From: Isoetes taiwanensis
Taxonomy: Eukaryota; Streptophyta; Lycopodiopsida; Isoetales; Isoetaceae
Direction of reading: 5' to 3'
Assembly (NCBI GenBank): GCA_021234155.1
Contig: JAJEKV010000272.1
Coordinates: 186,001 to 250,000 of the forward strand
Length of the DNA stretch: 64,000 nt
Positions within the stretch are counted from its first letter, which is position 1. Each line of letters begins with the position of its first letter. Under the pieces are notes generated by a model. That model was not told the origin of the DNA and did no database searches. It saw nothing but the letters and a program-made list of their open reading frames with translations. This document shows positions 5,950-63,190 of this stretch, piece after piece. Both the position numbers and the translations under genes were made by a program.

Positions 5950-6610
5950 CTGTAAGGATGTGTTCAACTATTCTTCATCGGACATATCAGACATACTATC
6001 TTCATCAGATAAAACCGAGACACGTTTTCTAGAATCTTTTCCTCATCTGCACTGGTCTAGCACGTAAGCGAAGCACCTTTCTTGATCTGCTGCATGGAAA
6101 CTTCGAATAGCACAAATTTGAGTAGAGAATACAAGTGACTTTTGGCTCGTTTGTCAACAACTCATACATCACCTTTGTAGAGGCTTCTTTCTATAGTAAA
6201 TGCCCTCCACAGCGGTTTCACCTCTCATAAACAAGTTTCCGCTGCTTGAAGTCATTTTCAACTTCAAATTTTGGCTTGGTGCATAGCAACATCCAAAATC
6301 TGAGAATCCTCCTCATTCCTTTAGGTGCGGCAAGTGCAAAGCTCTCCTTCTCTAAGTGCTTCGCAAGTACATTTGCCAAGGTTGAGTATAGTGGCTGGTA
6401 GACTTATGGGTCTCTTCCACATCATGAACATTGGAGGATGGTTCAACCACTACAAGGTTCCATTCATCTACATACAATTTGTTCTCACACATGTCCCATT
6501 TTCCATCCAAACAATTGCTACAAAAACATGATAGCTTTACGGTATGTAGGCGTGTTGGATTTCATGTCTTGAATCCATGGGTGAATGAATTTGCTTTGGT
6601 TTTGGAATTG
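5950..6610 (-). pseudogene. Unclassified DDE transposase family, copy D (C-terminal remnant)
   Basis: Only the C-terminal part of the family survives. Read on the minus strand, about 6540-6440 gives RKLSCFCSNCLDGKWDMCEN, matching the CFC-x-x-C-x8-9-CEN cluster of copies A (12329 on) and C (62620 on). Further down come GETAVEGIYYRKKPL (compare VLEGKYFKKYE in A) and finally TSADEEKILENV (compare ADEEKILEKL in A). Several stops and shifts interrupt it. The catalytic part expected at higher coordinates is not recognisable. The identity rests on three blocks in the right order and spacing. Confidence 0.6.
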
Positions 6611-6667
6611 GGCATAAGCCACGTTACACCCTACCTTAAAATTATTATTAAGGTAGCATAAAACTAC

Positions 6668-9150
6668 CTAAAATGTTACCCAACCAAGGGTGCCGGGGAC
6701 CATTAAAATGCCAAATTTAAATTCGATTGCATTGGCAAGGCTTAGCGCTCTTCGATAAATTTGGTGATCTATTTGCGAAATTTTGGTGACATCTGTACCA
6801 GGGAGTTGGTGATTAGACCCATCTGATGGGTTTCGTCTCCTTAATTTTTGTAAGTCCTTACATTGGATCATTAAAATATTAGGCGTAAGTCATTAGGAAA
6901 GTCTAAACATTTGATTGTTACAATGCTTGATTGTAGCTCTTGTCGTGGTGGATTTGGAGCCATTGAAGCCCGAGTAGAGTTGATCGATGTTGTACAAGGG
7001 GCAATTTTTCATTTGGGTTTTCTAAGAAGGTAAAAGAAAAGAGAGTTATATACGTTATGAAGCACTTACATTACTTTCTAAAGCAAAGAGAGCGGACTGA
7101 ATTACTTTGGATAGATATGGCGTATTCTAAGGCAATGGAGGCATCCTAAAAGGGAGGGCTGGCTCCTCGGCAAGAGTTAAGCCGTGCAGTATGCGATCCA
7201 AGCGCCATGTGTACTACTAGTTTTCAACATTCCAACTCCTCCTTTTTTCAGCACCTCATGTCCCTCACTAGACTGGCGTAACACCACTTTGCCTTTCACC
7301 TTAGATGAGTCCAAACTGTCAGCAAGACATAGGCTGGAAACAAAGACATTGATCCCCTGTCAATATGACCTTTTTCCTAATAGTAAGTACCTTGCAGATT
7401 AATCATTCTTCATGTCAATAGCTGCCTTCCCCCCAAAGTTTAGGGGGTACTCTTTGTTCTTGAATTCGTATGATGCAGTGCTTCTTCCCCAATTTGAAAC
7501 TATGTTATAGAATACAAGAATTTACCTTACCAGATCTATGTATGTCTTTTTCAAATTCTGATGCTTTGAAAATGATGTATATCATGCACTAATTATGTTA
7601 GTGTATAGTATGAACATGAAACTCCACCTTTAGATGAGTTCCATTACCTAGAGTAATATCAGAGGAAAAATTCTTGTCAATGGTGTTTTGCGAGAACCGT
7701 AATCATCCATGGCGAGAATATTATGAAGGCGATCTGCGGCATTCTAAGAGATAACGAAAAGTTGAGTGCATGTTTCGAATGATGAGATAAAGCTGCATAA
7801 TCAGTGATAGAAATCATTCTTCTAGAATTTTTAACGGTGAATTGTAATATATATAGATTTCTTGAAGTTGCTCATAGATGAAAGAACCTATTGTTTTAGC
7901 AAGGAAGCAAAAAGTCAGTATAATCGAGGCAAAATTCTTTTCTTCTAGAATCTTAATTTTGAATCTTTAATCTTTGTTATAGCATATAGAAGTGGCTCAT
8001 AGATGAGCGAACTTCTCGTTTCGACAAGTGAATGGTTGTTATTTGTTTATTCAGAATTAACCTTCTATTTGTCCAATCTGATTTACTTCACGGCCAACTC
8101 AAACATTAATTCTCATTGTGCTTGGCATGTGAACCGCAATCTTTCAAGTCGGTGATAAAGAATGCAAGATCAATGATTGGGCGATGCTTCTACAATCTTA
8201 GGATATTTTTTGTAATATTTGTCAAATGAATGATGCTATAAGTAGAGAATTTGGTTAATGCATGCATTTCTAGAAACGTTACATAAGGCAGGAAAATAAT
8301 CAATTCCCATGCCACGGCATAATTGCTATATTAATACTTATATTTCAAATTCAGAAGTTGTCAAACAATGCAGTTTAGAAGCAAGGATACGATATATGGT
8401 TGTTATTTTCCGATTAAACTACATGCAGGCACATCATTTGGGCTTGTGTAAGAGATTCACTGAATGAAAATAATTTAGCAGGCCGAGCAGTTTTCTTTGC
8501 AGTGTGCAGACTTACTATTTACCAAGCCATCTTCTTCCACTATAAATTCTAGAGACATACATCAAGATCTTTATAGCACATTTTGTAGCATTTGTCTCTT
8601 TATTCAATCGGCCGGCCACGGTAGCGAGATGGAATCATAAGCGACTTTCAACAATGAGCACAAAGCATGAAAGTGGAAAATAGCGTTTTCCCTTTGACAT
8701 CTATTTTTGGAATCATCATCAAGTATAATCTAGTTAGAACTGGATTTGAATTGAAAATTTAACCAAACCATCACTATGACTTGGTGAAGATTGATATATA
8801 ATGCCGTTGTTGTTCATCGACCCCCTATTGTCTTGCCCACTAGTACTACCATAATTGATATGCACCTCATCCTCTTCTTCACAGTCCTATCTAGCTTCAT
8901 AGTTCTTTGGAGCAAAGCGGGATGGAGAGATCAATAATGCATACTAGGAGTCTTTGTTGGCTCTATGGGCCCTAAGACTAGTTAAGTAGAATTTTTATAT
9001 GTCTTGGTTGAGCTAGAAACATAATGAACTAATATTAGAAACTCAACTCAATTTTGTTTCTAGGCTAGTTTTACTCGTGATTAGTCCATCTTAGTGGATA
9101 AAACCGACTTTTTATATAATATTGTGCGGTGAATAAGCTTCTTTAGTAGC
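6668..9150. other. Non-genic, AT-rich; no feature recognised
   Basis: Only short frames without motifs occur. Around 7620-8160 and 8540-8660 the text is AT-rich and non-repetitive. It may hold worn-out flanks of copies D and A, but I cannot align them by eye. Confidence 0.5.
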
Positions 9151-12100
9151 ATGGGAAAGTCCAAAGGTTGCCACCAATATGACAATCGTCTAGTAAATAA
9201 CATGGTGCAGTTTTTTCGACAACAAACCGGTCATTTGGATAAAGAAAGGCAACAAGAAATTCTAGGCAAATTTGTTCGTCATCCATCAATGGCAGAAGCA
9301 TATAATTCTGAGATTCTTCTTGGAGGTGAAAGCTTATTAGAAGTTATGACGAATTTGAGAACCTCTTTGCAAGTGGTGAAGGGTGCTGCCGATTTGCGAT
9401 CATCTTGCGACTAAGAATGCCATATTATCCATGGTAGTGTCGAGTCGGATCGGACAAGAAATATATGAAAAACAAAAAGGCCAAGGCAAAACTACTTGGT
9501 ATTAATAAGAGCAATTTTAAGAGGGCTTGTGAGAGAAAGAAAAAAATTATTAATGAGGATGGTTTGTGGGCTCATGGCTCAAGGCAACCACGCAGTGATA
9601 GGTTGTCCCAAGAGGTCATAGACACGATTCAAGTTTTTTGGGCAGGGAAAACTAGGGTGTCACCAAACAAGAAGGATATATGCAGGAAAAATCTTGGAAA
9701 AGGCAAAGACAATTTTGTCACACATCCAACCCATTATCTGGAAATCCCTCAGGTAACTAATTTTCCCATGCTTGTTGTATAATTTGCTGAATGTATCTTT
9801 AATTAATTCCATTCATATGTTAAAGAATATGGGAACAATACATATGTTTTTACCATTTAGTATTACTAAACTTTTAAGAGTGATTGGAAGGTGAGGAAGC
9901 TCTTAAATACTTGATATAAGTCTTCAAGGTGCTTCTAAACTCACAAGGAATTAAAGTACATAAAGTACACACAATACACAAACATACTTTCGAACCTAGA
10001 AGCAACAAAAGTAGAAAAAGATCCTGAAATTTTAAAAAAGTATACGTGAAGCTACTTTAGAGGATTTTAAAGTACATAAGTTACTTTTGATGCTGAAAGT
10101 CCTGTTGAAGATGTGGCAAGTTACTTTTGATGCTTAAAGTATGTTGAAGATACATCAAGGTACTTTTGATGCTCAAAGTACAGTTGAAGATGCATCAAGG
10201 TACTTTTGATGCTCAAAGTAGCATTGACGATATGTCAAGGTAATTTTGAAGTGATCAAAGTACACAAGGTACTTTTGATCTACGAAAGTTGTTTGAGAAC
10301 AAAGCTACCTTTTATTTGTGTAGTTGCATACATGAAGATTTCGACTTTTGCAATTGGTATACTATAGGTACAATGCAGCTTAAGCATGTCGATGGGCAGC
10401 TGATGAGGGATCTAAGACTCCAACTTACATTTGGTTGTATTTAAGGTACCCATCACACACTCAATATGCAAGGCTTCTAATTCTAAACTGCAAGACTATT
10501 TTGCACATTGCGGATTGGTGGACTTTAGGGCAATTGTGATTGGTGGTATGAATAAGAAAGGGATACATATTGCATATGCAAAGGAATGACATTGTGGGCG
10601 AACATGTGTTATACTTGAGTTGCAAATTGTTGTTATGATAATGTTTTGGCTGCTCTCAACAATAAGGTGATTTCTTTAATAGTATATGGCAGCTGGACAA
10701 CCCATGTCAAGAGACCTCTCAATCTCGTTTAGTCATGAGGTCTTTCTTATTATATAAATAGCCCTATTTTGTAAGCCAACATACTAATGGTTGCGGTATG
10801 GAAATGTAACATTATCAGACATGCCCAATCTATCACATGCCAATGAAGCTCCCAGCAAATGGTATATGATGATAAATAATGTGTTTCACCATTATTTAGT
10901 TTCTATTACTTACTCAAGTGTTATTTTCTGTGTTTCTTCTTTGGATTTAGATAGGTACTCAAATCTGATTGATATCTTGTGCTTTGGCAGGTTGAAATGT
11001 TTTTGCAATTTAAGGAGGCATATCCTCATGTACGCATTGGACAAAGATTGTTTGAGAGATGGAAGCCCTTTTATGTGAAGAAACTAAAGGAGCGAAATAC
11101 TTGTTGCTGTGTGCGTCATGTGCAGTTGGATTTATTGAGAGTTTCCTTGAATCAAATGAGGGACAACTTGACCATTCATAAAGATTGTAGATGTAATTGC
11201 TCTATTTGTGAATGGAAGGAAGGCATGGAAGCTTGTATAGCAGCAGAAAAAACATTTTCTAGGCTTCGCCGCGAGATTTGGGAAATGGCCGTATGTCCAA
11301 AAAGTGAAGGGGCAATTTGAATGGCATAGACTAAGTTGCTTGCTCGGGGAATGTGCTCAATGTGGTTCAAAAAAGATTAGGTTCTGCCCTAAGGAGTTAT
11401 CGGAGTCCGGCCCACTCGTCGGATGGAAAGTCTATGAGGATGTGAAGGATGGCAAAGATAAGAAGGGTCATTCAAAAAGTAGAAAGCAGCTTGTTTCAAA
11501 ACTGACATCGCCAGCACAATTGATAACGTTCTTTTACCAACACGTTAAAGATTTTGTTGCCCACAACTTCACAGCATGTTGGGAAGACAAACAATTTAGA
11601 GAATGTGTGAAGAACTTTCCTCCTGGGATTATTGTTTCCATTGTCGATTTTGCTGAAAACTACACGTTTAAGCCCACGAATGAAATTCAAAGTGAGTACT
11701 TTCATAGTCAACAAGTTACTATACTAGTTCATATTACCTATAGGCGTGAATCGGAGTTTGATGAACCTATAAAGGAATACCACTTTTATATCTCAGATGA
11801 TAAAGAACATGATACATTATTTGTGCAGCATTGCTTTAGGTTGTACCATGAGTGGGTCCAGAAGCAAGGATATGAGATGAATGAGCATTGGGTTTGGTCA
11901 GATGGAGCTGCAGCACATTTCAAGGCCTCTCGTCCATTTTATTTTGTTCCACGGTATTTTACTAGTACGGGAGTTCCAATGCATTGGAATTTCTTTTGTT
12001 ACAGTCACCGGAAAAGGAGAACATGATGGGCATGGGGGGCTCACGTTAAATAGCGATAGAAAAGGAACAATTAAAGGCTGATAGCATCATTGAACCCAAT

Positions 12101-12865
12101 GCTCATGTTGCTACTTCTTGGCTCACTGATAACATGTCCACTGGTGCAGCAGCAACTTGTTCTAGTCAAACAAGAGATGTGAAAAGATACTTTTGGGAAG
12201 TCAAAATCGATGATGTCAATCGTAGAGAAGCTTGGGACTGTAAAACAGTTGAAGGCACACGGAAAATTCATAGCATTCGTGGTATAAGCAAAGAAGACTC
12301 AACTAAAGTGATGACTAGACAGTTTGCATGCTTTTGCACATTTTGCATGTATGGTGAGATCCATCAATGCGAGAATATAAAACAAATTGGTGGTTGGACT
12401 GCACGCATTTTGGAACCCTTGCGAGGAAGAGATAGCTATACTTTACGTGGGCACACTGAAGATATTGATGATCATACACCCCTTGTTGATCTCGTAGGTA
12501 TTGGGACAATATTTGCAGTCGAGGCCCCAGTTGACAACGAAGATGGTGACATGTTTTGGCTGGTGCTATGCTCAGTCCCAAAGCATGCTCTTCAAGAAGA
12601 TATGGTTGATGCACATGGGAATAGATTTGTGAAAGGTGATGAAGTTCTCGAGGGCAAGTATTTTAAAAAATATGAGGGCAATCGAAATACTCATTCAGGG
12701 ACGACTAGTTACATCTTTGGTGGAAAAAATAGCAGCGCTATTGTGTATGCAGAACAAGTCATCTACATTATTGTGGATATGCCCCACGGTCATCAAGTTA
12801 AAGGAAAAACTGTTCATTTGCTTGGAGCAGCGGATGAAGAGAAGATTTTGGAGAAGCTTGTTTGA
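9151..12865 (+). pseudogene. Unclassified DDE-type transposase, copy A (best preserved)
   Basis: The predicted enzyme would bind transposon ends and cut DNA with an RNase-H-like fold. Exon 1 (9151-9752) carries a basic segment (LLGINKSNFKRACERKKKI) and FWAGKTRVSPNKKD, ending HYLEIPQ. A GT...AG intron (9753-10990) follows. Exon 2 has KKLKERNTCCCVRHVQ, a CRCNCSIC cluster, HRLSCLLGECAQCG, VDFAENYTFK (near 11643), HFYISDDKEHDTLFVQH, VWSDGAAAHFK (near 11898), an HGKGEHDG block (near 12010), FWEVKIDDVNRR, CFCTFC-x8-CEN (near 12329) and a C-terminal module ending ADEEKILEKLV. The acidic residues of DFAENY, SDG and KGEHDG are the likely catalytic set, by inference. There are frameshifts near 9410, 9470, 11310, 12009 and 12050, so it is not directly translatable. 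I cannot name the superfamily with certainty. Confidence 0.7.
10010..10320 (+). repeat. AAAGTAC/GGTACTTTTGATGC repeats in the intron of copy A
   Basis: The intron contains about five diverged units of about 40 bp with the frame AAAGTA(C)...GAAGAT(G)CATCAAGGTACTTTTGATGCTC, plus isolated AAAGTACA words from 9950 onward. AAAGTAC and GTACTTT are inverse partners, so each unit can fold back. A related GTAC-rich text fills an intron at 17203-17836. Confidence 0.75.
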
Positions 12866-15380
12866 AATGTTATCATTGTGCATAAAGCATGGTTACGTTT
12901 CAAGAAATGAAGGCCCATTGTTGGTTGTAATCAATCATGTTTTTATTCACTTTGGAGTAGGCACATATAACGTGTACTTTTGTTACCCATTGGCAAACTA
13001 TATTTTTTCTACTAGGGTTGCAGATTATGTTAATGTCTATGTTCTTAGCGGGTGAATATTTGATAATTTCCAGCCTCACTTACTCTGTGCTTGTACTTTT
13101 TGATGATGTTAGATTCCCTTTGCTTTATTTTTGATGTGGTTCATATACATTATGATCGGTCCGAGTTTATTGGCCGTAATGTACATTGGTTTTGTAAGTT
13201 TTGGCCTCTTGTTTGGTCATGTGAAAGCCCCAACTTTTCTGCTGACTACAAAACGTAAATTTATTATACAAAAAGGTAAAGTCTTACGGTTGGCCTTCAT
13301 ATTCTTTGTAATGACATCATAATGGGTATGTCTACGTGTTGTGAAAGGCACCTTATTAGAGTGCCGGTCGACGAACGCCAATGTGATGATTGACAAGGAG
13401 ATTTATTTATTGGTAGAATGAATGGGGTCCCTGAGGGTGATGCCTATTACTGGGAGATCGTGTAAGGTTAGTAGTCTCACTTATAATTTTTAGGGATTTT
13501 GAAATAGAAGATTTGTTTCAAATAGTTATGAAGATGAAGATTGTTTAGAAATGTAGTAACAATATATATTTGTTCCCTTTTGCTCAATTGTGGCGAGGAA
13601 TTAAATGACATTATCAAGAAAGGTATCTTCTTTGTTGTGTATCTTGCTTACGTATCCTAAAACTTTCACAAAATCCAAGTGCGTTCTTGGCCTCTTAGTG
13701 GCAAGGGGGGTCGACAGCATAAGGTAGAAAATTAAGCTATTGCATGTCAGCTTTTTCTCCAGTTGTGACTTGATATATCAAAGATCAGAATCATCATCAC
13801 TGGAGAGTTAAAGAATTTCCAGGATTTTGTGTTAAATATAATGGCAGGTGACTAGGGTTGGAAGCACTCATGGCTGTCTTCTTTGTTGTGTGTCTTGCTT
13901 ACGTATCCTAAAACTTTTACAAAATCCAAGCACGTTACTGGCCTCTTGCACTGTAAGATTCATTTTAAAGCATTTACTTGCATGCATTCATACATTCTCT
14001 TAACCCCTTGCTAAAGCAGAGGAAATGTATCTTATAGTCATTCAACTTGTGAGTGGGAAATGTTATCATGCCACAGACCACTGCCTAACTCGGAAAGAGG
14101 AGAAACTATGAAGATGCATGTAGGCCTTGGTAAGTGGCAGAGCAGATATTTAAAGTCTTAGTAAGTGTTTATCTACATTTCATAAAAGAAACAATGCATT
14201 CTTGCACATTTAGACCCAATTTAGTGTTAAAAGAAGAGGGCTATAAAGGGACAAACTATACAATAGTTTAACCCTTGTGCATGCAAAATCATGACTCACA
14301 AACCACCTTACGTAAGCATCAAAGTTGTCCTTGAGTATCATTTTGAGATTTGGGTCGTGGATTAAGCGAACCTTACAAGTTTCGAGTTCCTATTGCCAAT
14401 GGAGCAGTGAAATGGAGGTTGGAATAATTATTGATGTAGTAAAGAGAGCTGGTGGTTGCCTTAGTTGAGGAGAGTTTGCCCATGTTGTGGTTGCCTCGAG
14501 TTGAGTAGACTAGCTTATACAATGTGGTTGAAACTACCTTTGACCTTTCTACTGTCGCATCGCATCTTCAATATTAAATAGGGATCTATATTTCACTACT
14601 TGGGCTTGTAAATGTTAATTTGATATATTGCATGATGCTTGTGAAATAGTCGAGGCATCGGCTAAAATTCTTCTGGTCAGGCTGAAACAAGTCATCTCTG
14701 GGGTTTTGAGCGGTTCCCTTTATAATGGTGTTTTTGAATGCCACCACTTGCATACAAATTTAGGGCTACGCTATTATGCGTAGTACCTTGCAATGTAAGA
14801 ACTAGTACTTTTGGATTGAGTTCATATGGTAGGCAAGTTGCCGTATGCCGAGGATTATACGCATTTAACCCGGCATTTGCGGTTTGTAATATTGGACTCG
14901 AGAGGTAGTATTGAATTGCGGTATAAAGTTTAAGCAATTTGAATCGAATCAGATTGAGTTCTTACAACATACAAAGTGGTGATCGTGGATGAAATAACTT
15001 GAAGGAGTTGTTGAATCGGCCTTGTCCATTGCTTGTGTGAAGCAACCCATATTGAAAGCATTACTCATGTGGTAAGACATTTCATGATTTACTTATTTGG
15101 TGTTTCTAGTCATTTAAAGGAGGCTTTGATTTATTTGCACTTTTGGTCTTCTAAAGCAGTTGTGTTCTATGTTGTGTTTCAATCCAGTAGCTAATGAATA
15201 CAAATCTGGACCACCCATACAACCAAACAAAGAATTGGTTTGAAGACACATGAACACGATGCCACACATGCGCAAAGTTACATTTTGGAAAACCACATAT
15301 TGATTCAACAATCAATTGAACAAGCACCTATTGTTAATTGTATCAAGAAGGTACAATAGATGCTCAAAATGCTATTCCTT
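12866..15380. other. Non-genic; contains one diverged 74-bp direct repeat pair
   Basis: No gene is supported. Two copies of a segment beginning TCTTCTTTGTTGTGT and ending near GGCCTCTT lie at 13624-13697 and 13875-13948, differing at about eight positions. The rest is AT-rich unique sequence with short meaningless frames. Confidence 0.6.
13624..13948. repeat. Direct repeat pair, about 74 bp each, 251 bp apart
   Basis: The copies at 13624-13697 and 13875-13948 share CTTGCTTACGTATCCTAAAA and AAAATCCAAG. They could be a solo repeat flanking a deleted insertion or a local duplication. There is no inverted end structure. Confidence 0.7.
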
Positions 15381-15389
15381 CACTGAACA

Positions 15390-18300
15390 AAATTTGACAA
15401 CGGCAATATGTGGATGTCTCACAAAATCTTGCTGTTCTTGAGTAATTTCTTCACATCTGCTATTTCTTTGGCTGAACCCTTCATCATTGGAAATCGCATT
15501 ACATGGGTACAGACATTTGTTGCAGCAGCGACTTTCTCAAGATAAGGAAGCAGTTCATCGATCAAATATTTGCCACTTCCAGTCTCTGATTGACAACTAA
15601 AGGAGTATGGTACAATATATGATCCTCTAGGGTTCGATGAACACTTGTACTTTCGAGTCTTCTATTAGAAGACTATTTGAGAATCATTATGGCATTGATG
15701 ACCATATTGTGTGGAGATCTTTGAGGAATATTTTCCGCTGGAGTGTGTCACGGATGATCAAGATTTGTGGACTCACATTGTGCGATCCCAAATAAACACA
15801 AATCGCCACATGCGTCTTGGGGCAATAGATTCTCGAGCAATGTGGTCAAGTTTTGTTCACCTAGCGTAGACCAAATTGCAACCATAAAGTGTTTCATACA
15901 CTCCTTAATGAAGTGCACATAACACGGTCTTACTACAATACTAAACCTGCCTATATGATAGAGCTCTGATTCTGGGTGTCGTCTCGGTAGTCTCTGACCA
16001 ACGTCAAATCTCTTAATAAAGATTCTATTCGGATCTAGTATTAAAAGCCTTTTTTCTCCTCTGTAATAAATCGCAATCTTTAGTCTAGAATGATTTGCAT
16101 ATCGAAATTACATTACATTAGGAATGTATCTACCTTGTTAATGGAAGAGGTTTGACAGGATTACACACGGTTTTAATTGGAGAAGCCTTTGGCCTGCAAC
16201 AAGTCCACAAACCATTACATTTGTCAAATATATAAAACAGAAGGCATTTGGAGGTATGCTCTTTCATATCTATCTTTTTGCAGCATTATAGATCATAAAA
16301 ATGCAGCTAGAAATCGTTACATTGGCAAATGTTTATGATAGACGCATTCTTTCTCTTTGCATTAAGACCCATTCTTTCTCTTTGCAAACTTCTCTAGCGA
16401 TGAAAATAACATGACATGTACTTACACTAGTTTTTTCTTCACTGGTGGTGCAGCTTGCTTTCCTTCTTTGCGCATCAAGTTTGGACTTTTGATATTGTGG
16501 GCAACATCATCTACCATCAGCAATTCCTTTTAATCAAAATCTCAATGCATGTCAAGTATGCAATTTCTAAAGCACCCACCTGTATTTTGTTTTTGATGTT
16601 CACATGGTATTTGCATCCTTGGGCGGTGTTCCAGTCTCATCTTCCCCTAGTTTGAAACAGCAACCCCCGTTGTTATGAAAAATAAAAACTTCTAATTTTT
16701 ATGATTAATACACCTACCTGAAACTACATGCAATCTTAGATTTCTTCTTGCCTTCATCTTTGCTGGACTTTGATTATCCGTGCCACCTTGTTTTACCATT
16801 CGGGGTCTTTCAAAAGACCGCTGTATTGGTCTACTCAAATCCGTTGATGTAGTATTGCAACCCTTAAGTACATTATATGACCGATCATTCTCTTGCGAAG
16901 AAATGGGGGAGTCACAAAGGAGTTCAGCCTGCTGTTCATGCTGAGAATTGAGTGGTATGTTGCAGGCTCCTATAGATTCATCAAATTTTTGGAAATTTTG
17001 TGGCTAGATTCTATCAGCTGGTCTTCTAGGCAGTCAAGTTTATGATCATATTTAGGGAACTCAACACTATTTACAACTTCCTTTTGCTTCTCTAGCTTGC
17101 TCATCCAATCGTCTTCAGAGTCAACAACCCATGTGATCCCTTTCGTTGTGGTTGGTGATTTTTTTGTTTCTAAGCTTTGAATAGCAGCATCATCTGCATC
17201 ACCTGATAGATCAAGATATGACCATATTAGTTGATTAACCATGGTATTTTTAACGTATCGATCCTAAAATCTACTACTGTACTTGTACTGGTATTCAAAA
17301 TACATAAGACACTCAAGTTTATAAGTCCTATATTGCTTTATTTACGGTAAAAAGTAAAAGGTTACTCAAATAGTTATTGAACCTTAGCCAACATTAGCTA
17401 CTAAGGAGTAAATCCAATGTACATAAGATACTTTATCAAGCTAAAGTAACCATAGTATCTAAAGTGCTAATGGAGTCATACGAATAAGGTACTTAGCTAC
17501 TATTTTGTATATAACTTATACTTGATGTACAAAGGTAAGCCATAATCAAGCTGATGTACTAAAAGTTCCATACAAGGAACCAAAGTATCTAAAGTACCCA
17601 TGGGATTGTACTTGATGTACAAAAGGTACTGATGTGCTTAAAGTCCCATACAAAGAACCATAATATCTGAAGTACCCTTGGGATAATACTCGAAGTAAGA
17701 GTACTTTGATATTACTTCAGTTTATTTCATGCTTGATGTACACAAGATAAGAGCTTTGAGCTAAAGGACAAAACTAAGTGTTCTTTTCATAATTCAAGGT
17801 CTGACATATAAGGCAAAAGTCTGAAAGAACATATACCTGCATCATGAGTTGTAATCTCAATACTTTGAAGAGTTGTAATTCCAATACTTTGAAGCCAATC
17901 CTTGCTGACTTGTTGAGTACAAAGGCTACAAAGATTTGAAACCTTGAATGCATGCACTGCACATGCCAAATGGAAGGAATGCATGCATGGAGAGATTACT
18001 GCAGCATATTGGAGGTCCTTAAAACCAAATCCACAAAACCCACATGTTACTACATCAACTTTCACTGCTGTAAAGTTTTCATTAGGAGTTGATAGTTGTG
18101 GCACGACCATCATGCTCCCTCCATCTTGTATTGCGTGAATAAAAGATTCTAATCTCTTCTTCCTACAGGCTATTTCTTCATTTATATCTTTTTCTTTTTT
18201 ATATAGTTCGTCTTTCAACTTTACTTCATGTTCCATTACCCGTATTTTTTCCTCATTTGTAGCTGCGCTTCTAATGTTCTCACTTATCATATAATTCATT

Positions 18301-19162
18301 CCAAGGTCATCCATACCTAACTTTTCTACTTCAGCCTCTAATTTCTTTTTTACGTCAACTTCTTCATGAAATTGAAGTTTCAGCTCTGCACTATCTCGAG
18401 GTCCAAGGCCTAACTTGTCAACGAGTTTTGATTGCATCTCAAGCTCCTTTCTCTTTGCTTCAAGGTCTTTTTTCACACTTTCAAGTTTCAAATTTAAATT
18501 TGTAACCTGCTCCTCTATGTACTTAGAATTTGCTTTTGCACTTTCTAATTCTATCAAAGCAGCTCTCCAACTCTCATAATGGACACACACCCCTTCATTT
18601 ATGGCTGCATTTTTTGAATCTGGGATGTGGTCCTCAAGCACTTGAATCAATTTAGTAGCAATGGCTGGCGACATAGTCAAATCATCATCTTTGCTTTGGC
18701 TTCTCATCATTTTCTGCTCATCCTTTTTGTTGAGGCTTCTTATCTTGTTTTTCTTATCTGAGCATGTTCGCTAACACTATCGGTCAATGTCAATGCCATG
18801 TTTCCATCTTTGCATAACATCGAGCCATATACATTGGTGCCGCGATATACTTCGGTTTTGTTATGGAAGATCTTGTTGTAGATCCCCAAGAACTCAAGCT
18901 TCCATTGCCTCCTAAGACGTGACACATTGTATCCCTGTTTGCCATCCTTTGAAGAAATCCCCCATATGCTAGACATCATCTCCGGCGTCAAAAACATCTT
19001 CACTTCGGAGCATGAAACAAGTCTGCCGCCTTGCACTGACTTCTCTTCCTTGTTATGTGCAATCACTTTCTTAGGACTAGGTGAAAACTTCTCCAAGCTA
19101 CATGAAATTCTTTGTTTCTTTGGTTGTCGAGGAGACGCTATGACTCTATGAGTTTTCTTCAT
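15390..19162 (-). pseudogene. Decayed coiled-coil/RING-like/FCP1-like phosphatase gene, about six exons
   Basis: The first part (19162-17837) starts MKKTHRVIASPRQPKKQR (basic, nuclear-type). After a frameshift near 18740-18775 it continues into a long Lys/Glu coiled coil (VTNLNLKLESVKKDLEAKRK) and a RING-like finger: CGFC, then SPCMHSFHLAC, then NLCSLC. A clean GT...AG intron (17836-17203) joins THDA to GDADDAAIQS. Exon 2 runs to about 16718 with a one-base shift in an A-run near 16985. Further candidate exons are 16646-16580, 16526-16426, 16193-16134 and 16060 onward; the last three join in phase. The final exon opens GEKRLLILDPNRIFIKRFD, the FCP1/NIF nucleophile region with D-x-N replacing D-x-D, followed by HFMVAIWSTLGEQNLTTLLE and, after a shift, FVFIWDR. 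Stops follow. Exon 3 phasing does not fit cleanly. The role would be nuclear protein phosphatase, by inference. Confidence 0.6.
17203..17836 (-). repeat. Intron rich in GTAC words (CTTGATGTACAAAAGGTAC type)
   Basis: Diverged units carry TACTTGATGTACA(A)AAGGTA, AAAGTACCCATGGGAT and CCATACAA(G/A)GAACCA at least twice each between 17400 and 17720. The AAAGTAC / GTACTTT vocabulary is the same as in the intron of transposase copy A. Confidence 0.65.
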
Positions 19163-21107
19163 GTTACACCTGTAAAAGAGGGTCTGATAATGTAAAAGAC
19201 ATGCTGAAATTCAGAACCTTAATATCTATAAATTATGCCAAATTATACCTACCTTAGAAAGCAGAATGTTTCTAAAAAAAGCCAATTATAATGGATGACA
19301 TCCAATCTTGTGCAGGCATGTGATCAAAGATTCATACTTGCATTGTCTAAACACCCACATTTGACATACATATTAAAAAGAGCATTAGCCATAGCTATAT
19401 GTGGGTGAGAAATTGATAATACTAGTGGACAACAGTTTGCTTTGGTTAAGGCAATCAAGCTGGTTTGCAGGAATGAGCATGCTGAAGAATGAGTTCATCT
19501 AGCTTAATCCCTTCTTGTTGCATGTATTTGAAGCGCTTTAAAGCATCTATGTTATTTCCATAGGATGCAAAGCGGAGTTGTCATGTAACTACATCATCTT
19601 CATCACAGCGTTCCTAAAATCTTTCTTTGAACCACCGTACATATTCTTGAGGATGTTCAAATTGTATGGTGCGATCCAAATCCATTATTAAGGGACATGG
19701 GCATGCATTGTGCAACACCAATTAAAACAACCATTTCACCAATTTAAAATCTATATATGACTGAAATTATAGGTTCTATAGCATGATTATAATCTATTGA
19801 AAGCCATCCAAGGCATTTACGCAATATTGAAATTTGTCTTCCTATCTAATGTGAGGAGGCACTAGCGGGGATACTCTTTGATGTTCTTTTGAAGCACATT
19901 CTTGCAAATAATAGTTAACGATAATATAAAATACATTGATGATTTTGCTTGATTCATCTTAGAAGGCTTAAATTTGGTAGAGTTTTGTCAATTACAGTCG
20001 TGGAGATAAATGTTGATAAAGCAAACTACGAGAAGATGGATTGTGTAGGTCATGGAAGATAAATGGTCATGGTAAGCAAAGCGACTTGAGAAGATGAGTT
20101 TCAGCGTCAAGATTATGAAATGCATGGTACATAGATACCAAGAAGAAAAGTTTATAGATTTACATTTGCTACAACTGTGCTAAAAAGACATCATAGATGA
20201 GTAACATCAACCAGAGACCAGAGAATGACAATGACAGGAAACCGATCTTGCAGATTTTATTTAAGAAATTCTTGTGGGTCTCTGTCCTTGAGCAATGATT
20301 GATTGGGTTGAAGAGGAGAGACGAGATTAGTTTGTAGTGCTTTATCTGTTGTTGTTGTTTTCCAATATGCTAGCTTGGAAAAGTTTTATAGTGGGATAAA
20401 GCCATACAGAGATCTATGGAACGGTTTTTGCCACTGCACATGAAATCGAAGCAAGGATTAATGTCAAGATCAAAGGAGCAGCTAGTATGAAGTTGTCAAT
20501 GAAATTTTTTTAAATCTTATTTCGTTGAGCTGCCTCCGGTACTATGCAGGTGGTTCATTTTTTTTCTATATAAACTCAATCATGTAACGTAATACTTTAA
20601 TTAAATATAAGACTCACTTGAACTTGCTCGATGAATTATGCTTTTAAAAAACTGTTTCCGTTGATTTGCACATCGTATGGTTCTGGCTCTAACCGGAGTA
20701 ATTGGTTATAGATCCACCACCTACATGCCAGCCACTAGTGTTGTCACCACCATCACGTGCTATTGAAGATCATTCTGGCCAAAAGCAAAAGAACTTAGAT
20801 TCACCATGAACGAGGAGATTCTTAGAAAAAATTGTATGGCGCTTACAACAAATCTCCGGTAGCTGAAAACAATACCTTGTATTTAATCTTGTTGTATCTA
20901 ATCTGGTGCACAATAGAGACAATCAATGGACGGAGAAATATGAATCCAAATAGAACGTAAGCTTTTCTTCCTCTAGTCATACTCTAGTCATAGGACGATT
21001 TTATCGACATTGATTCTTGCCTCCAGCATTAATAGCGCTATCTTATTTCGAATTCAAATTCAAATCGATATCTTTTTGGAACATAAAAGGTGTTAAAAAA
21101 AAAGTAC
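19163..21107. other. Non-genic, AT-rich; no feature recognised
   Basis: This stretch lies upstream of the RING/FCP1 gene and downstream of transposase copy B. I see no coherent frame, terminal repeat or tandem array. Confidence 0.5.
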
Positions 21108-27022: not shown

Positions 27023-27091
27023 TCGTGTAATTCAGAAAGGACAAAATTTTGAATAAGTAATCATGTGTATATTTGAAAAAATAACTGCCTC

Positions 27092-28947: not shown

Positions 28948-28995
28948 AATATCATTGTCTGATATGAACGTTAACCTAAAGGAAGGAGACGAGTG

Positions 28996-43819: not shown

Positions 43820-43824
43820 CTTAT

Positions 43825-46548: not shown

Positions 46549-46550
46549 AT

Positions 46551-50724: not shown

Positions 50725-52005
50725 CTTATGCAAATCCTCACAATCTACTTCTACATCATATGGATGTAAGTACTGCTTTTCTAGATGCGGATTTAGATGA
50801 GGACATATTTATGAAGCAGGCCAAAGGCTATGAACGAGGAAAAAATATGGTCTGGAAATTAAAAAAAGGCATTGTACGGGCTGAAACAATCACCAAGGCA
50901 ATGGTTTATGTGTATGGATAATTTTCTCAGAGAACAAGTGTTTATAAAGTTGTAGAACGATGGTAATTTGTATATTTTCAAGCATAATGATCAGTTTTGC
51001 ATTATTGCTCTCTATATTGATGATAACATCATGGTAGCCAATCATGTTGATTGTTTAAATTACTACAAACAGATTCTTAGCAACAGATTTAAAATGACAG
51101 ATCTTGGTTCTCTTAAAAAATTTCTAGGGATGGAAGTTTTCAGAAATAATGAGCAGAAAAGACTTTACATAACATAGGTTACGAACACACCAGGTATGTT
51201 GCAAAGATTTGGCATGGTTGATTGCAAAATAGCTTCTTCTCCTTTAGTTACAAATCAAAAGTTATCATTGGAGCAAAGTCCCAAAAATGAAGAAGAAATG
51301 AAAGAAATGGAAAGATGCCCATACAGGGAGTTGATTGGTTGTCTCTTATATGTGGCAAACACATACAGACCAGATATTGCATTCAGTGTTAATTTATTGA
51401 GCAAATTTTTGAATAACCCAGGAAGGCAGCATTGGCAAGCAGCAAAAAGGGTACTTAGATTCCTTAAAGGAACACAAAACTATGGATTGACATTTTGCAA
51501 TGATGACCTCACACTAACAACATACTCAGATGCAGACTAGGGTGGGGATTTGGACACAAGGGAGTCTACATCTGGATATGTGTTAAAACTTGGAGGCACA
51601 TGTATATCAGAGAGAAGCAAGAAACAAGGGTGCATAGCAATGTCAACTACAGAGGCTGAGTACAATGCAATATCATTGGCTGCGAAAGAGATTGTCTGGG
51701 TAAGAAGAATCTTAGATGAGCTTGGCATACCGCAAATGGAACCAACAATTTTTTATACAGATAGTTTAAGTTGCCTTGCTATTACAAGAAATCCGGTCCT
51801 TCATGAGAGGACAAAACATATTGAACTGCAAATTCATTTTGTGAGAGATATGGTGCCAAAGGGAAAAAATTCAGTTCAATATAAGAGTATTGAAGAACAA
51901 ACAGCAGATGCGCTTATTAAAGTTTTGCCTGTTTACAGGTTTCAGAAGTTACAGACAATGTTAGGAGTGAAAGAAGTCAAAATAACAGATGACATGAAAG
52001 GGGAA
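50725..52005 (+). pseudogene. Copia reverse transcriptase (second part) and RNase H
   Basis: It continues from 43819 with HHMDVSTAFLDADLDEDIFM (first catalytic Asp), then FIIALYIDDNIMVAN, the YxDD box as YIDD, then FKMTDLGSLKKFLGMEVF. RNase H text follows: [37 protein letters not shown] and [20 protein letters not shown]. Stops include TAG codons at about 51176 and 51538. A 22-base-scale deletion is likely after the KKGI region near 50870, since the GLKQSPR block is missing. Confidence 0.88.
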
Positions 52006-52538
52006 TGAAGGAAATCATAGTCATGTCATCTGTATTTCTAGTATCTAAGTACATGCAGAAGGATATGAGTATATGCAGAAGGATCTTAGAAGAATTAAAT
52101 CTCTAAGGTATCAGGGGTTAATATCATGGTCAATAGTGTGGATTTAAACCATTGGACCGGAATATTATGTATTTATAGTAGTCTATAAATGAATAGAATA
52201 GTGCCTAATCTGTATTCAGGAATAGGAAGCTCGAAACCAACTGAAAAGTTCGGTGAGCTCTCGATTATATATGAAAACCAAGAAGTACGTATAATAGACA
52301 GATGAAAGCTGAAGATACGGCAGATCCGACATGTATCTCAGGGGTTTCCGATGCTATTTTAGTTTGATCCATATACTTCAAAGTGTCTCACTTGTGCTAC
52401 AGTAACTTTCAGTTCAAAGTCATAAAGATATATTACCTATATAGTTTTTTTAAAGCCTCCTATAGTTCAAGTTCCAAATTGAAATATATTGCTAGTCATA
52501 TATTATTGTATTTCAATTGTGACTAGCCTATTCTATCA
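52006..52538 (+). repeat. Copia 3' LTR
   Basis: 533 bp, TGAAGG...TATCA. It matches the two halves of the LINE-split 5' LTR (33794-34038 and 35989-36269). Confidence 0.93.
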
Positions 52539-57079: not shown

Positions 57080-58267
57080 TCAAGCTCCATCCTCCATGCC
57101 ATCTAGAGCTGCTGCAAGTATTTGCTCTGCTCGTCTCTTCTTCTCATCCATCTCTTCCTCATTGTCAAGTTGCAACCCTCTTGCCCCATCCATCCTCTTA
57201 CCAAGAATTAAGCTTGCAGCCTTGCCTTTTTGTGGAGCTTTTGCACCAAACCCAAAACTGAGTAAAATGGGCGGCCTCTCTTTAGGATCTGGAAGATTTC
57301 TCTTATGCAGATCATTAGGATGATTACTGATCTCATGTACACCTGCTTTGGCAGCTTGCACTACAGGAGCAAAGGCTTCTAAAACTGATGAAAAGGTAGC
57401 AGAGCCATTAGGATGCTCTTCTGGTGGCTTTTGCTTGTCTTTATCAAAGCATACTGGCGTAACTTCTTTTACTCCAGCTGGTAAGGGAGGAGCCAAATAT
57501 GAGTTCTGTGATGTCACTGGCCGTTTTCCTTTGGCCTTGCCCTCAACCTCTAGTCTCGCCAGCAATTCCTCCTGTTCCCTTGAAGCAGATAGAGCTCCAA
57601 ATGAAGGGCCTGTAGAGGGAGGAAGTGCAGATGCACCAGATGATAATCTAAGAAGAGAAAATAAACAATTTTCAGCTCTGCGCCTCTGCCGTGCCTGCTC
57701 CAGTCTCTCCTTTGCAGGATCAACTTTGCGTTCTGCCCATACCGGAGTAACCTTGTAAGTATGTGGATCTGGAAAGGCTGGAACCCACCTTGGGATATGA
57801 GATGATGGGGGCGTCTCTCTAAGCTGTAAAAAACTGGGGGGAGGGTTCCTCTTTTTCGGAATGGGAATGCGAGGCAGTGCCCTAGCAAAAGGCACTTCTT
57901 CACCAAATTCAACATATTTCATAACCTCTCGAAATGCAGTAGAGTTTGCAAGAGGCCTTGATGGGTCTATAACCATGCCTGACGGACTGACATCTTCCAA
58001 TGCCAGGATTGCATCAAACACATTGCTTTCTGTCCTGCCTGCCAGATTGGAATAATAGTGTGCTGTTTTGGCCAAATCCCGGAGGTAACGGATAGCAATC
58101 TCGGCCAAGGTTTCCCCTGCTGAGTTTTGAAAACCATGAAAACCCACAGATTCACATATTTGTGCAACCGCAAGCTTTGCCGCAGTTCTAACAAACTCAT
58201 CCCTGCCGCTGATATCAGTACTGCTGCCATTGCCACCATCGTTATCCCCAGAGATTGCAACAGTCAT
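57080..58267 (-). CDS. TAF8: Transcription initiation factor TFIID subunit 8
   Basis: Intact 395-residue protein of the general transcription factor TFIID. Residues about 24-95 form the bromodomain-associated histone fold (AKLAVAQICESVGFHGFQ, then GETLAEIAIRYLRDLAKTAH, then ESNVFDAILALEDV), which pairs with TAF10. Residues about 157-177 hold the TAF8 C-terminal motif HIPRWVPAFPDPHTYKVTP, followed by WAERKVDPAKERLEQARQRR. The C-terminal half is low-complexity and ends DEKKRRAEQILAAALDGMED. Length is at the upper end for plants. The ATG at 58267 is the first in frame after the leader. No intron interrupts it. It is transcribed away from the region with kinase and oxygenase fragments; UBL5 lies downstream in the convergent direction. 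Confidence 0.93.
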   Translation of the reverse strand: MTVAISGDNDGGNGSSTDISGRDEFVRTAAKLAVAQICESVGFHGFQNSAGETLAEIAIRYLRDLAKTAHYYSNLAGRTESNVFDAILALEDVSPSGMVIDPSRPLANSTAFREVMKYVEFGEEVPFARALPRIPIPKKRNPPPSFLQLRETPPSSHIPRWVPAFPDPHTYKVTPVWAERKVDPAKERLEQARQRRRAENCLFSLLRLSSGASALPPSTGPSFGALSASREQEELLARLEVEGKAKGKRPVTSQNSYLAPPLPAGVKEVTPVCFDKDKQKPPEEHPNGSATFSSVLEAFAPVVQAAKAGVHEISNHPNDLHKRNLPDPKERPPILLSFGFGAKAPQKGKAASLILGKRMDGARGLQLDNEEEMDEKKRRAEQILAAALDGMEDGA

Positions 58268-58445
58268 TCTTACATCCTCTTTTTCGACATAACAAAATCA
58301 CAAAAGTAGAGTTCTATTTGTTGGGTGCTGCCGGATTACCATACCTGGACTGAAAGCGCCAAAATCTGCACCATGCGAAAGCGCCCGCGATTTGGAGCTC
58401 AAAATGCATGCCCTAATCCACGCCCCGAGCTCTGGATTGGATGCT

Positions 58446-59730: not shown

Positions 59731-60108
59731 ACTAGAGATGCTTGGGGAGGTGCAAACCTTGAGAAAGATCTGCCAACTGGCATATATGTGATGCAGATTT
59801 TGGGGTAAAAGCATGAAAGGGTGTACGTACATCGTACTGAATTGAAGGACGAATTTGTGCTTTTTTGGGGTACATTTTAGATGTACATCAAGATACTCTA
59901 GTTTGTCGTTTTGTGTCAGGTTTGCAATGATTGCAAGATCATCCCTGACAGCGCCCTCGAAATTCTTGGGAACCACCGAACCACCGAACCAATTCGAATG
60001 GATCCGTCCCTCCCTTTCTAAAATTCCCCCCTTTCACAGGACGAACACCGAACGAAAAACACATACCAATTGAATCTACAAGAAATACAAATCAATTTCA
60101 ATCTGTTC

Positions 60109-63100
60109 ATGGAGGGTGAGAATTCCAATGGAAGTGGTGGTTCTAAGCGCAAATATGCCGACATTGGACAGTGTTATGCCACAAAACAAATAAAGCAGCG
60201 TGTTGACAGATCGGTGGATTGCATCCTCAGTTGCTTGCAAACGCTTCTTCCAGATCAAAGATTAGTTTTTTGTGCTCGTTTGTTGCAAGATGACAGGCTT
60301 TTTTCTTGTTTCGAACCCGTAATTGAAAATCCTTCCAAAGTTATTGTTATGAAATCAATGATTAGAAACTTGAAAGATGGGCTTCAAGAAGTAAAGTCTG
60401 CTAATAGCAAAGATAAATTGGCTGCAAAACATTCACTATTATCAATAATTGTTGGAAAAAAAGGAGGTATAAACAAGAATGTTTCTTCAAAATTGCTAAA
60501 GATACAGCCAAGAAATTTATCTAAAGCTGCAGCAAGAAGGAAGATAATGTCATTATGTGGAGCAAATGTATGGGCTTTGGCAGGAAGGATGCCAAGATCA
60601 AATAGAATCGATGATTCAATCAAATGTCAGGGTCGTGAATTTTGGCTTGATAATACCAAAGTTTCACCAAAGGTTAGAGATGTCATGAAGAGGAGAACAC
60701 AAGCAATACAATACCTTGATATCTCACAGGTTTGCTCTTGTAATTGAATCAATTCAGTTTTGGAGATTATGTTTTCTTCCAAAATTCTTTCATAACTTTC
60801 TTACGTACATTCTAGTTACATTCGAAAGTGACTGTTAATGAATACACATGGTTTTCATGAAATGTATTGCATTTTATATTGTTTACATTTTACATTGTTT
60901 ACATAGTAGCGAGAAATCTTTGATGATGTGCTATTAGGTACTTTTTTAGATGTACATCCATTAACACTTACATGTCCATGCATTTGCATTTACATGTACT
61001 TGAATATCAAAATTACATCCGTTTACATTTAAGTGTACTTTCAGGTAATGAAGCCAAACAATTCATACATATTGTAACATTAATGTGATGTACTAATATT
61101 GTAACATTAATTAGATGTACATTAGATGTACATTGGATGTACATTAAATGTCTGAAGAATGGATCGATGGAACTGTTGAATGTACATTAGATGTACTGAT
61201 GTACATTAGATGTACTGAATGCATCGATTGGAACTGTTGGATGGACATTTTATGTACATAGAACATACATTAAATGTACAATTGTATAGTTCAATACTCT
61301 GGATGCATCTGGTTGCTGACATCATTTTGCTAACATGGTCTTTAATGCTTTTGTTATTGCAGTCTGAGCTTTATCAACAGTTTGTATATCGAATTCGATA
61401 CCAAAATTAGCCGACGGTTCGAAAGTATCCAAACCCGATTGCATAAGGAAATTGAAGGAGAGAAACACATGTTGTTGTGTCAAACATGAGCAAGCTTATC
61501 CGTACTGCAAAAGGCCTTCAATGATATGAGGAGATCCCTACATGTTAAGTGCACTTGCTGCTGCAGTGTCTGTGCATCCCAGCAAAACAATGGAGTATGT
61601 CAAGTAAACAAGAAGACTTTTGATAATGTTAGTATCTTGTGGAGGTCAACAGTTTGTGAGAAATATGTGACGGATGAATGACATAAACTAAAATGCATCA
61701 AAGGTGAATGTGATGAATGTGGAGTGAAGAAATTAGACATTTGTCCAATAGACGAAGATGGAATTCAGAATGTCGACTGACAAGTATATGCATATGTCAA
61801 TGAGCCATCCAAAAAAGGTACATCCAGAAGGCTTAGATTAGCTGATCAGAATGACAAAGCATCTGTTTTGTTAAAGAACATGAAAAATCAGCTTGCTAAG
61901 TTTCTGAGATCATAACTTTACAAAGACACCTGGCCGAGCAAACAGTTTAAAAAGATATGTTGAGAAACTCTGGGATAATAGTGTGTTGTCTCGTTGTTGA
62001 CTTTTGCAGAGAACTACACATTGAAACCAGGGGAAGTGCAATCCGAGCATTGGAATCTGATCAAATTAGTATTTTGGTCCATATTTCAATGATGAAAATA
62101 GAAGGTAAGCTTAAAAAACAAAGTGCATTTCTATGTTTTGATGATGGGAAGCATGCCACTCATTTTGTGCAACATGATTTTAAATTACATTTGGGGTGGC
62201 TTAAGAATAATGCGAGGTGGACACATAAACCTTCATTATGTGTGGTCGGATGGTTGTGCATCTCAATTCAAATCAGACGGGCATGGTATAGAATCAGAGA
62301 TACCATGTTGAAAACAAAATTCGAGTGGTATGGAATTTCTTTGGATCCGCCATGGAAAGGCACAACGGATGGGCGAGGCTGGTATAGCAAAGTTGTGGCT
62401 TGAGAGCGGCAAAAAAACAAAATGGCATGCCGGTGGCGGATAAAAAGAACAACTTGTGCGCTTTTTAAGGACCAAGAAATCGGATTGTGAAAGGGCGTTT
62501 TGGGAGGTTGGAAAAACAGATGTGAATAGGCAAAACAAGCATTCAATTGCAAGACTTTTACGGTACTTTCAGCCAGATACATTCTCAGGTCAACTATAAA
62601 CCCGCCAGATCCAACAAAGTTGCTATGCAGACCACTCTCGTGCTTTTGTGATGCTTGCATGAACTTCAATTGGTTGAATTGTGAGAACATTAAACATTGT
62701 GGAGAATGGTCTCTAAAACGTTTGGAGCCCACAGATCATATTGCCTCTCGTGGTGAAGCTGAAAATGATGTGGATGTTTTGTACGCAGAAGACGAGGCTA
62801 GTTTAGATGACACTGTAGGAGTTTCAGATGTATTTGTGTCTTTTGCAGCACCAGACAATGTGGAAGGTGTTTCATACTATGTTCTCATGTGCACCAGGGA
62901 AAAGCATGCATTGGAAGAAGATTCAATTGATGACTATGGAAATGAATACTCTGCTGGCACTAGTGTCATTGAAGGACAATATTATAAACTAATCCCGTAG
63001 CGCCACAATAAGTATAAACCGCTTCCTACTAAGAATGTTTTGGTACCGCGAGACCGGTGGATTGGGGTTCGAATCCCATTCAAGAAAGTAAATCACAAGT

Positions 63101-63190
63101 TGAAGGAGGCAAGCACAGCATTTCACTTGCCAGATGAAGTCCATGAGACATTGTTATCACAACTTCCAACAATTGTAGATGACATGGACT
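60109..63190 (+). pseudogene. Unclassified DDE-type transposase, copy C
   Basis: The ATG at 60109 opens MEGENSNGSGGSKRKYADIG. Exon 1 is intact to 60729, with DRSVDCILSCLQTLLPDQR, KIQPRNLSKAAARRKIMSL, FWLDNTKVSPKVRD and QYLDISQ at the donor. The intron is 60730-61362 (acceptor TTATTGCAG). Exon 2 is broken by many shifts but shows KLKERNTCCCVKHEQ, a KCTCCCSVC cluster, HKLKCIKGECDECGVKK, VVDFAENYTLKPG (mixed frames), VWSDGCASQFKS, a worn GKGTTDGRGW, CFCDAC-x8-CEN (62647 on) and a C-terminal module with HALEEDSIDDYGNEYSAGTS. Of the four copies it has the only uninterrupted N-terminal exon. The catalytic exon is dead. Confidence 0.7.
60940..61275 (+). repeat. GTACATTAGAT repeats in the intron of copy C
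   Basis: TTAGATGTACAT and close variants (TTGGATGTACAT, TTAAATGTACA) recur more than ten times between 60945 and 61275. GTAC is self-complementary, so neighbouring units can pair. A second small cluster of the same words lies after the gene at 63298-63362. Confidence 0.85.

Follow-up and report, generated by a model that had tools for sequence, protein, structure and literature searches.

What kind of mobile element has left its transposase-like genes in this part of the Isoetes taiwanensis genome, and did these genes travel alone? The stretch analysed here, referred to as the window, consists of 64,000 nucleotides of this lycophyte (contig C645, positions 186001-250000), and the Isoetes taiwanensis assembly searched for its relatives comprises 1,658,258,908 bases in 1110 contigs. 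A first-pass annotation had recognized four copies of a DDE-like transposase family, which it could not place in any of the usual superfamilies. The whole of the evidence is, with high confidence, best explained by cut-and-paste (class II, terminal-inverted-repeat) transposons that combine a two-exon DDE/D transposase with NIF-like and RING cargo genes. The family is a genuine type of DNA transposon, abundant and active in recent times, whose accessory genes are conserved; its novelty resides in the genes for a NIF/HAD phosphatase-like protein and a coiled-coil RING protein, which the elements carry on the strand opposite to the transposase.

Three copies, not four, were found in the window. 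Copy A is a complete multi-gene element of 14.55 kb on the plus strand (6610-21164), possessing both termini, GGGCATAAGCCACGTTA at the 5' end and GGGCATAAGCATACTA (reverse strand) at the 3' end, and framed by a target-site duplication AATT (6606-6609 and 21165-21168); its similarity (94%) to the copy on contig C1103 starts at 6610. The stretches previously counted as copies B and D are a single minus-strand transposase gene, because copy A has inserted between its two parts; joining the flanks gives the conserved order ..RRYFWEIKPEDINRKKVWGAETI|..IHS.., then CFCSNC, with the frames shifted, and the reading as four separate copies was rejected. The 5' part of this copy B/D (21165-23907, minus strand) comprises a terminus GGGTGAAAGCATG at 23907, exon 1 (22895-23455) and most of exon 2 (21165-22379), and the severed 3' end of exon 2, the former copy D, lies at 5998-6609 on the same strand. 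Copy C (59803-64000, plus strand) begins with the 5' terminus GGGTAAAAGCATG at 59803, comprises exon 1 (approximately 60175-60732) and exon 2 (61431-63189), and runs off the window; its 3' end, like that of the copy on C919, was searched for and not found.

Inverted-repeat searches in single loci gave nothing useful on the element ends, which were defined by comparing near-identical copies. One compact lineage comprises several copies, 97-99% identical, with sharp common ends, and the ends of the elements are GGGNNNAAGCAY-like, of the GGG..CCC type. The compact element on C23, for example, measures 11,308 bases between the inverted ends GGGTCCAAGCACAATAGGGCGTCTCA and GGGTCCAAGCACATTAGGGTGGCTCA, the matching stretch of the terminal inverted repeat reaching about 25 bp in C23 and being shorter in copy A. 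The compact-lineage terminus has 47 exact matches in the genome and a second terminus variant has 1163, the controls yielding 0 in both cases (a reversed pattern for the first). A perfect 4-bp target duplication occurs in 16 of the 17 elements with both ends, with 16 different tetramers and none longer than 4 bp, and flank pairs taken from different copies as a control agree in 0 of 272 cases; the elements tested were 13 compact copies, copy A, L006, C570 and a 322-bp non-autonomous element, the paired termini of C1064 and C996 being left out. Both terminal inverted repeats and target duplications, which the first-pass annotation had proposed to look for across genomic copies, are present. An empty site is also available: C1103 displays the arrangement GACA-element-GACA where the window possesses a single GACA (366-369), the element in question being the 322-bp non-autonomous one (C1103:62770-63091), with inverted ends and a GACA duplication. 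Its terminus variant is the one found at 1163 places, and small non-autonomous derivatives may therefore be very common. Depending on the copy, the end-to-end distance ranges from 9.8 kb (L006) to 15.8 kb (C570) in copies read through, and reaches up to 32.5 kb (C1034) in others, in which nested insertions are assumed. A loose 12-base terminus pattern, GGGNNNAAGCAC, also matches by chance within elements and is by itself not significant in the window (4 found, 4.00 expected).

The transposase gene, in copies with open frames, consists of an exon 1 of about 220 codons, a GT-AG intron and an exon 2 of about 630 codons, the GT and AG splice sites being visible in C623, C570 and L006. Exon 1 ends in a FWxxNTRVSP..HYLE block and contains a helix-turn-helix-like stretch recognized by eye alone, for which Pfam gave nothing above the cut-off. 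In copy A, exon 1 (9151-9773, plus strand) was delineated by tblastn with the C623 exon 1 in three pieces of 57-80% amino acid identity and ends in HYLEIPQ, followed by a GT donor in its relatives. Exon 2 (10988-12859, plus strand; three pieces, 83-85% identity to the C623 exon 2) comprises a Cys/His cluster, the DDE/D core, a CFC cluster and a BAH-like C-terminus. The frames of copy A are broken, with alignment breaks at 9387/9398, 9475/9492, 11314/11319 and 12014/12029, and four stops in the aligned exon 2. The ordered motif blocks described by the first-pass annotation occur where it had placed them, far beyond chance; a first look at the genome returned 8870 candidate places for the transposase core (a rough count), 146 of which were scored, and across about 630 residues the exon-2 proteins encoded at other loci are 37-80% identical to the first one aligned.

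Two alignments were built from these proteins: A2, containing 26 of the 27 listed exon-2 open reading frames (ORFs), some of them partial (L025 was left out), and A3, containing 16 of the 20 considered (two without the CFC motif and two short ones were left out). The invariant columns of A2 include D226, E229, D277, D281, D311, E350, D352 and E409, and in the 24 members with all three motifs readable the spacing is 84-85 residues between the first and second Asp, then 39 to the Glu or 41 to the third Asp. An AlphaFold2 model derived from A2 (mean predicted local distance difference test 74.9, predicted template modelling score 0.62) displays the order strand (220-225), strand, strand, helix, strand (305-310), helix, strand (337-341) and helix (348-366). 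The DDE-like reading is borne out by this predicted fold: an RNase H core is present, its elements in the proper order and its acids located after strand 1 (D226), after strand 4 (D311) and in the last helix (E350/D352). The catalytic acids are thus likely, according to the model, to be D226, D311 and either E350 or D352. There may be animal proteins in which comparable blocks end in HGKGxxDG; these would favour the DDD alternative. Among the candidates covered by VIA-align, where a family missing from the listing is not thereby excluded, retroviral integrases come first (Z 8.6, 3.3 A over 155 residues), followed by IstA (8.2) and Mos1 (7.7); these cores share the predicted RNase H fold and the order of acidic residues, but differ in sequence (6-11% identity over the aligned residues) and in accessory domains. 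A search of PDB sequences with the transposase profile returned two rows (E 0.22 and 1.7), read as chance.

The C-terminal part of the transposase is weakly predicted to be BAH-like. Residues 501-623 of the full model match the BAH domain of AIPP3 (Z 7.8, rank 23), and for a second model, built from the last 185 residues only (mean predicted local distance difference test 72.4), BAH proteins occupy the top eight rows (Z 6.2-7.4), DIM2 being taken as one of them, ahead of tudor domains (6.1). As a Z below 8 can reflect merely a common arrangement, the BAH-like assignment is a lead.

The first-pass annotation had implied that the transposase was the whole system. Further genes, however, sit within the same termini. 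In the A-type copies (C623, C570, C919 and the window), the blocks located 3' of the transposase follow one order and one orientation, with a NIF-domain gene, a conserved region called gene 3 and a coiled-coil RING gene, all on the opposite strand. In copy A, these correspond to a broken NIF-like (HAD) phosphatase-like gene (15422-16107, minus strand; 52-59% amino acid identity to the C623 gene), to the gene-3 region, conserved but without known domain (16716-17218, minus strand; 46-51% to a 220-residue C623 ORF), and to the RING gene, split into two ORFs (17787-19210, minus strand; 52-63% to a 474-residue C623 ORF). Both cargo genes are enclosed by both ends in C23, C570 and copy A, as is the RING gene in L006.

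Assignment of the first cargo gene rests on the NIF domain PF03031, with E-values of 8.8e-12 (C570) and 3.6e-12 (C623). Compared with the Pfam gathering score of 21.8 bits, the C570 relative reaches 45.4 bits and the copy A ORF at 15751-16107 falls just under it with 20.6. Eight of the 12 NIF-like ORFs scanned exceed the cut-off (L011 45.4, L013 46.7, L076 60.5, L080 54.9, L083 42.2, L085 37.0, L082 46.8 and L079 62.4), six of them beside a listed transposase match; L083 and L085 have none nearby, and L085 may be a host gene. No Pfam match was obtained for the ORFs of window 135-419, L027 (C23) and L074 (copy C). In motif I, the second Asp of the DxD signature is replaced by Asn in all 12 readable stretches (C623, C570, copy A, copy B/D, L076, L078, L079, L080, L081, L083, L084 and L085), ten of which read DxN and two YxN, the first Asp being Tyr in L083 and copy B/D; motif I was not seen in the NIF-like ORFs of L077, L082 and C23. 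The sole PDB sequence matched is UBLCP1 (E 0.0038). The family thus shares the PF03031 domain with the UBLCP1/SCP-type NIF phosphatases but departs from them by these substitutions, and, judged by its sequence, the NIF-like protein is likely a binder or a weakened phosphatase-type enzyme. For gene 3, the C623 ORF gave just one Pfam row, below the cut-off. The RING protein of C623 displays, by eye, the spacing C-x2-C..C-x-H-x2-H-x2-C..C-x2-C.

The cargo recurs in four diverged lineages, though not in every copy read. The compact C23 element, whose transposase is 42% identical to that of A, possesses NIF-like and RING ORFs in the same places, the former with 29-31% amino acid identity to the A-type (tblastn, E 1e-14) and the latter with 38% over 61 residues (E 3e-10), neither with a Pfam match. 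Copy C is accompanied, beyond the window end, by a NIF-like piece (64295-64504; 1.4e-09) and by a coiled-coil ORF with a cysteine cluster (67201-67848), again with no Pfam match for either. Copy B/D, B-type by similarity, includes a NIF-like gene running on to the left of the window (1-419, plus strand; hmmsearch 2.8e-14 for 135-419) and a RING-like ORF just outside it (C645:184164-184583). The B-type copy L006 possesses the RING gene, with BRE1 (6.9e-06) and zf-rbx1 (2.1e-04) both below the cut-off. The cargo comparison was made without C1089, several kb of which read N downstream of the transposase.

To which superfamily, then, does the transposase belong? Taking into account the 4-bp duplication and the DDD/E core, Sola, which the first-pass annotation had not listed, is the nearest named superfamily, compared by description only; it is a live candidate, and the family can be called Sola-like by mechanism. 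Membership of Sola, which would make the transposase of a known kind and the cargo alone new, is given an even chance. In the excerpts available of PMC10741241 and PMC9033089, Sola elements are described as having a DDD transposase, a 4-bp target duplication, a size of mostly 2-9 kb with some over 15 kb, terminal inverted repeats of 11-1124 bp and a moss among their hosts; the family studied here fits by its duplication (16 of 17 elements), its transposase with a predicted DDD or DDE triad, its size range, its short and variable terminal repeats and its occurrence in a non-seed plant. Such descriptors are nevertheless loose and were compared with no Sola sequence at hand, and in the same excerpts (PMC10741241, PMC9033089) NIF and RING genes or a BAH-like tail are not mentioned. 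With respect to the DDD triad, both E350 and D352 are invariant in A2, as are D226 and D311, and either can serve as third catalytic candidate. Kolobok, according to the part of PMC9587614 available, likewise combines a DDD/E transposase, a 4-bp duplication, RR..YY termini and, in several lineages, accessory proteins; it differs by duplicating TTAA, found in 0 of the 16 duplications here, and by the accessory proteins named there, which are nucleases, a helicase and KolX. Dada resembles the family by its multi-exon DDE transposase with zinc clusters but, as far as the excerpt of PMC3706591 goes, has 6-7 bp duplications, sub-terminal inverted repeats and small RNA genes as targets, in contrast to the 4-bp duplications and terminal repeats observed here. 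Ginger shares a duplication of 4-6 bp and an integrase-like core but possesses, in the excerpt of PMC10741241, TG..CA termini and inverted repeats of 40-270 bp, instead of GGG..CCC and about 25 bp, and none of the 26 transposases scanned matched a Pfam integrase.

That the family represents a separate, undescribed superfamily of DDE/D transposons is a serious possibility, though held with less than even belief. Pfam, run on 26 transposases, returned no meaningful family match (best chance-level row 0.0038), nor did NCBIfam and PHROGs, run on four each. The first-pass annotation's statement that the family cannot be assigned to the usual superfamilies holds in this respect, and the ends and duplications are unlike theirs as well. 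Mutator-like elements, with their expected duplications of 7-12 bp, were rejected, as none of the 17 elements exceeds 4 bp and no Pfam MULE match was obtained. The same 4-bp duplication led to rejection of hAT (8 bp; no hAT Pfam model matched), of CACTA or EnSpm (3 bp and CACTA-like ends, compared with the GGGNNNAAGCAY-like ends here), of Tc1/mariner (TA) and of PIF/Harbinger (3 bp; no Pfam transposase model matched); it fits both Academ and Chapaev. With the A2 profile, pattern matches numbered 40 among prokaryote contigs and 12 among viral ones; none could be confirmed as a relative, a negative which says little because these collections hold few eukaryotes. An IMG/VR contig (L012, 5001-5096) contains a 33-residue stretch with 45% identity around DFAENY, probably by chance. 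Literature listings, at the level of titles and abstract openings, showed neither a multi-gene transposon with NIF and RING genes nor a Sola element of Isoetes. Against an undescribed superfamily stand the absence of Repbase from the database comparison, the scarcity of eukaryotes in the contig collections and the fact that, to our knowledge, Pfam holds no models for several Repbase superfamilies.

A further explanation, quite unlikely, regards the NIF and RING genes as host gene fragments captured by chance, as in MULEs and Helitrons. Gene capture is frequent in plant DNA transposons, and many copies here are broken. Yet the order and orientation of the cargo remain constant in lineages on either side of the midpoint root of the A2 tree (FastTree, midpoint-rooted, branch support not shown, copy B/D not included), which separates the A and C types from the compact and B types; since the cargo occurs on both sides, it may, on the basis of this tree, predate the split. 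Linkage, which speaks for the preferred explanation, was assessed from 150 scored NIF matches (out of 4699 candidates) together with 145 transposase matches out of the 146 listed. Among the matches listed, 35 NIF-transposase pairs lie within 15 kb, with the NIF gene downstream in 33, on the opposite strand in 33 and both in 31, and 1.8-2.4 kb downstream in 14. Twenty-two of the best 29 NIF matches are paired (19 loci, three genes being matched twice), and the other 121 (non-A) matches account for 13 listed pairs compared with 0.32 expected; for most of these 121 the list shows no transposase in the vicinity, and host genes may be among them. Between A-type lineages (C623 compared with C919, C570, C1103 and the window, C1103 being without RING match), the ratio of nonsynonymous to synonymous substitutions (dN/dS, Nei-Gojobori), in which codons were paired via local alignments so that frameshifted stretches can raise it, amounts to 0.11-0.15 for the transposase, 0.23-0.34 for NIF and 0.28-0.49 for RING, well under 1, also against chance capture. 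Divergent NIF copies give 0.37-0.69, with one undefined. The A-type values indicate, at the sequence level, that the NIF-like and RING genes are under purifying selection between lineages of the A-type group.

Least likely of all is that the cargo is a second mobile element often nested beside the transposase: nested insertions do occur (copy A inside B/D), seven of the best 29 NIF matches (C1018, C1043, C499, C1027, C1049, C373 and C1069) have no listed transposase within 15 kb, all but C1069 (6 of 7) having a RING match close by, and the loose terminus pattern matches within elements (window 7489; C919 10744 and 13348), but, among the copies read, a single pair of ends and a single target duplication enclose the cargo of C23, C570 and copy A, and the 14 listed pairs at 1.8-2.4 kb downstream also oppose it.

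Several observations weigh against the preferred explanation, that of transposons with a DDE/D transposase and conserved cargo. C104 is the one element of 17 without a target duplication, and the duplication of L006, AAAA, falls in an A-rich flank. Foldseek found no PDB match at E below 0.001, its best rows including RNase H-fold proteins (Argonautes, endonuclease V, RuvC) as well as others, and the fold search of BFVD gave nothing at E 0.001 or better. The BAH-like scores of 7.8 and 7.4 have tudor and MazF rows only 1-2 below them, and the C-terminal profile matched no PDB sequence. Pfam RING models remained below the cut-off wherever scanned (best 23.3 bits compared with 27.3, others lower; zf-RING_2 8e-05 in copy A). 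With respect to presence of the cargo, no NIF gene could be found in L006, and the stretch of the C1103 copy examined yielded no RING match (the nearest listed lies more than 20 kb away). In L008, the other C-type copy, the 10 kb on the downstream side gave neither a NIF nor a RING match, and the ORFs there resemble, by eye, those of retroelements. Finally, near-identical copies of the compact lineage show dN/dS values of 0.45-0.93, some with stops and two undefined, which lend no support to a need for the cargo; such ratios are expected if most single copies decay.

Other features were noticed in and around the window. The 5' fragment of a further family element (25284-27188, minus strand), with a terminus at 27186, matches a portion of the C1103 locus at 91% identity. 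Immediately 3' of the C-type transposases, similar ORFs were noticed by eye in L008 (5668-6159, minus strand; no Pfam match) and in the window (63557 to just past 64000, minus strand), and may belong to the NIF gene. ORFs that look helicase-like by eye (L075, 2520-2934, plus strand) lie to the left of the window, inside or beside the B/D element, and are perhaps a Helitron piece. An Ulp1-like reading of window 856-1317, based on a sequence motif, received no support from Pfam and was dropped. A WDR55 homologue occupies a single open frame of 358 codons (28975-30051, plus strand; PF24796, 1e-109) and a TAF8-like host gene also lies in one open frame (57080-58297, minus strand; Bromo_TP 2.6e-19, TAF8_C 3.1e-16), and ORFs resembling, by eye, the reverse transcriptase of long interspersed nuclear elements and Copia pieces occur on the plus strand at 33937-35867, 36326-38456, 43044-44248 and 51178-52008.

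A mechanism can be proposed for the transposons and their cargo. Exon 1 would bind the terminal repeats, and D226, D311 and E350 or D352 would hold two metal ions and free the 3' ends, which the transposase would then join to the target strands with a stagger of 4 bp. The BAH-like tail might dock the complex onto nucleosomes, the NIF-like protein, with DxN for the catalytic DxD, might bind phosphorylated transcription proteins or weakly dephosphorylate them, and the RING protein could ubiquitinate host factors that would otherwise silence or limit the element. These roles of the accessory parts are hypothetical; that selection has kept the cargo suggests that the elements come equipped to deal with host chromatin or transcription. 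A bolder and rather doubtful proposal is that the family is a new superfamily whose standard unit is a four-gene module, made of a DDE/D transposase with a BAH-like reader, a NIF-type pseudophosphatase, a RING ligase and gene 3. If true, these genes would jointly engage transcribed or marked chromatin and blunt silencing, thereby allowing the very high copy number in the lycophyte.

In many DNA transposons the transposase is the only gene. Within this one genome, lineages that have diverged retain the same extra genes in the same order, under selection between A-type lineages. Cargo retained and selected in this way suggests that transposition, or the evasion of silencing, has long required one factor resembling a phosphatase and another resembling a ubiquitin ligase. 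Because Pfam has no model for the transposase, the annotation of lycophyte genomes may overlook such elements or take them for host genes, and its counts of the NIF and RING families may be inflated. The question is accessible to experiment, as identity among recent copies amounts to 97-99% and in some of them exon 2 is an uninterrupted frame.

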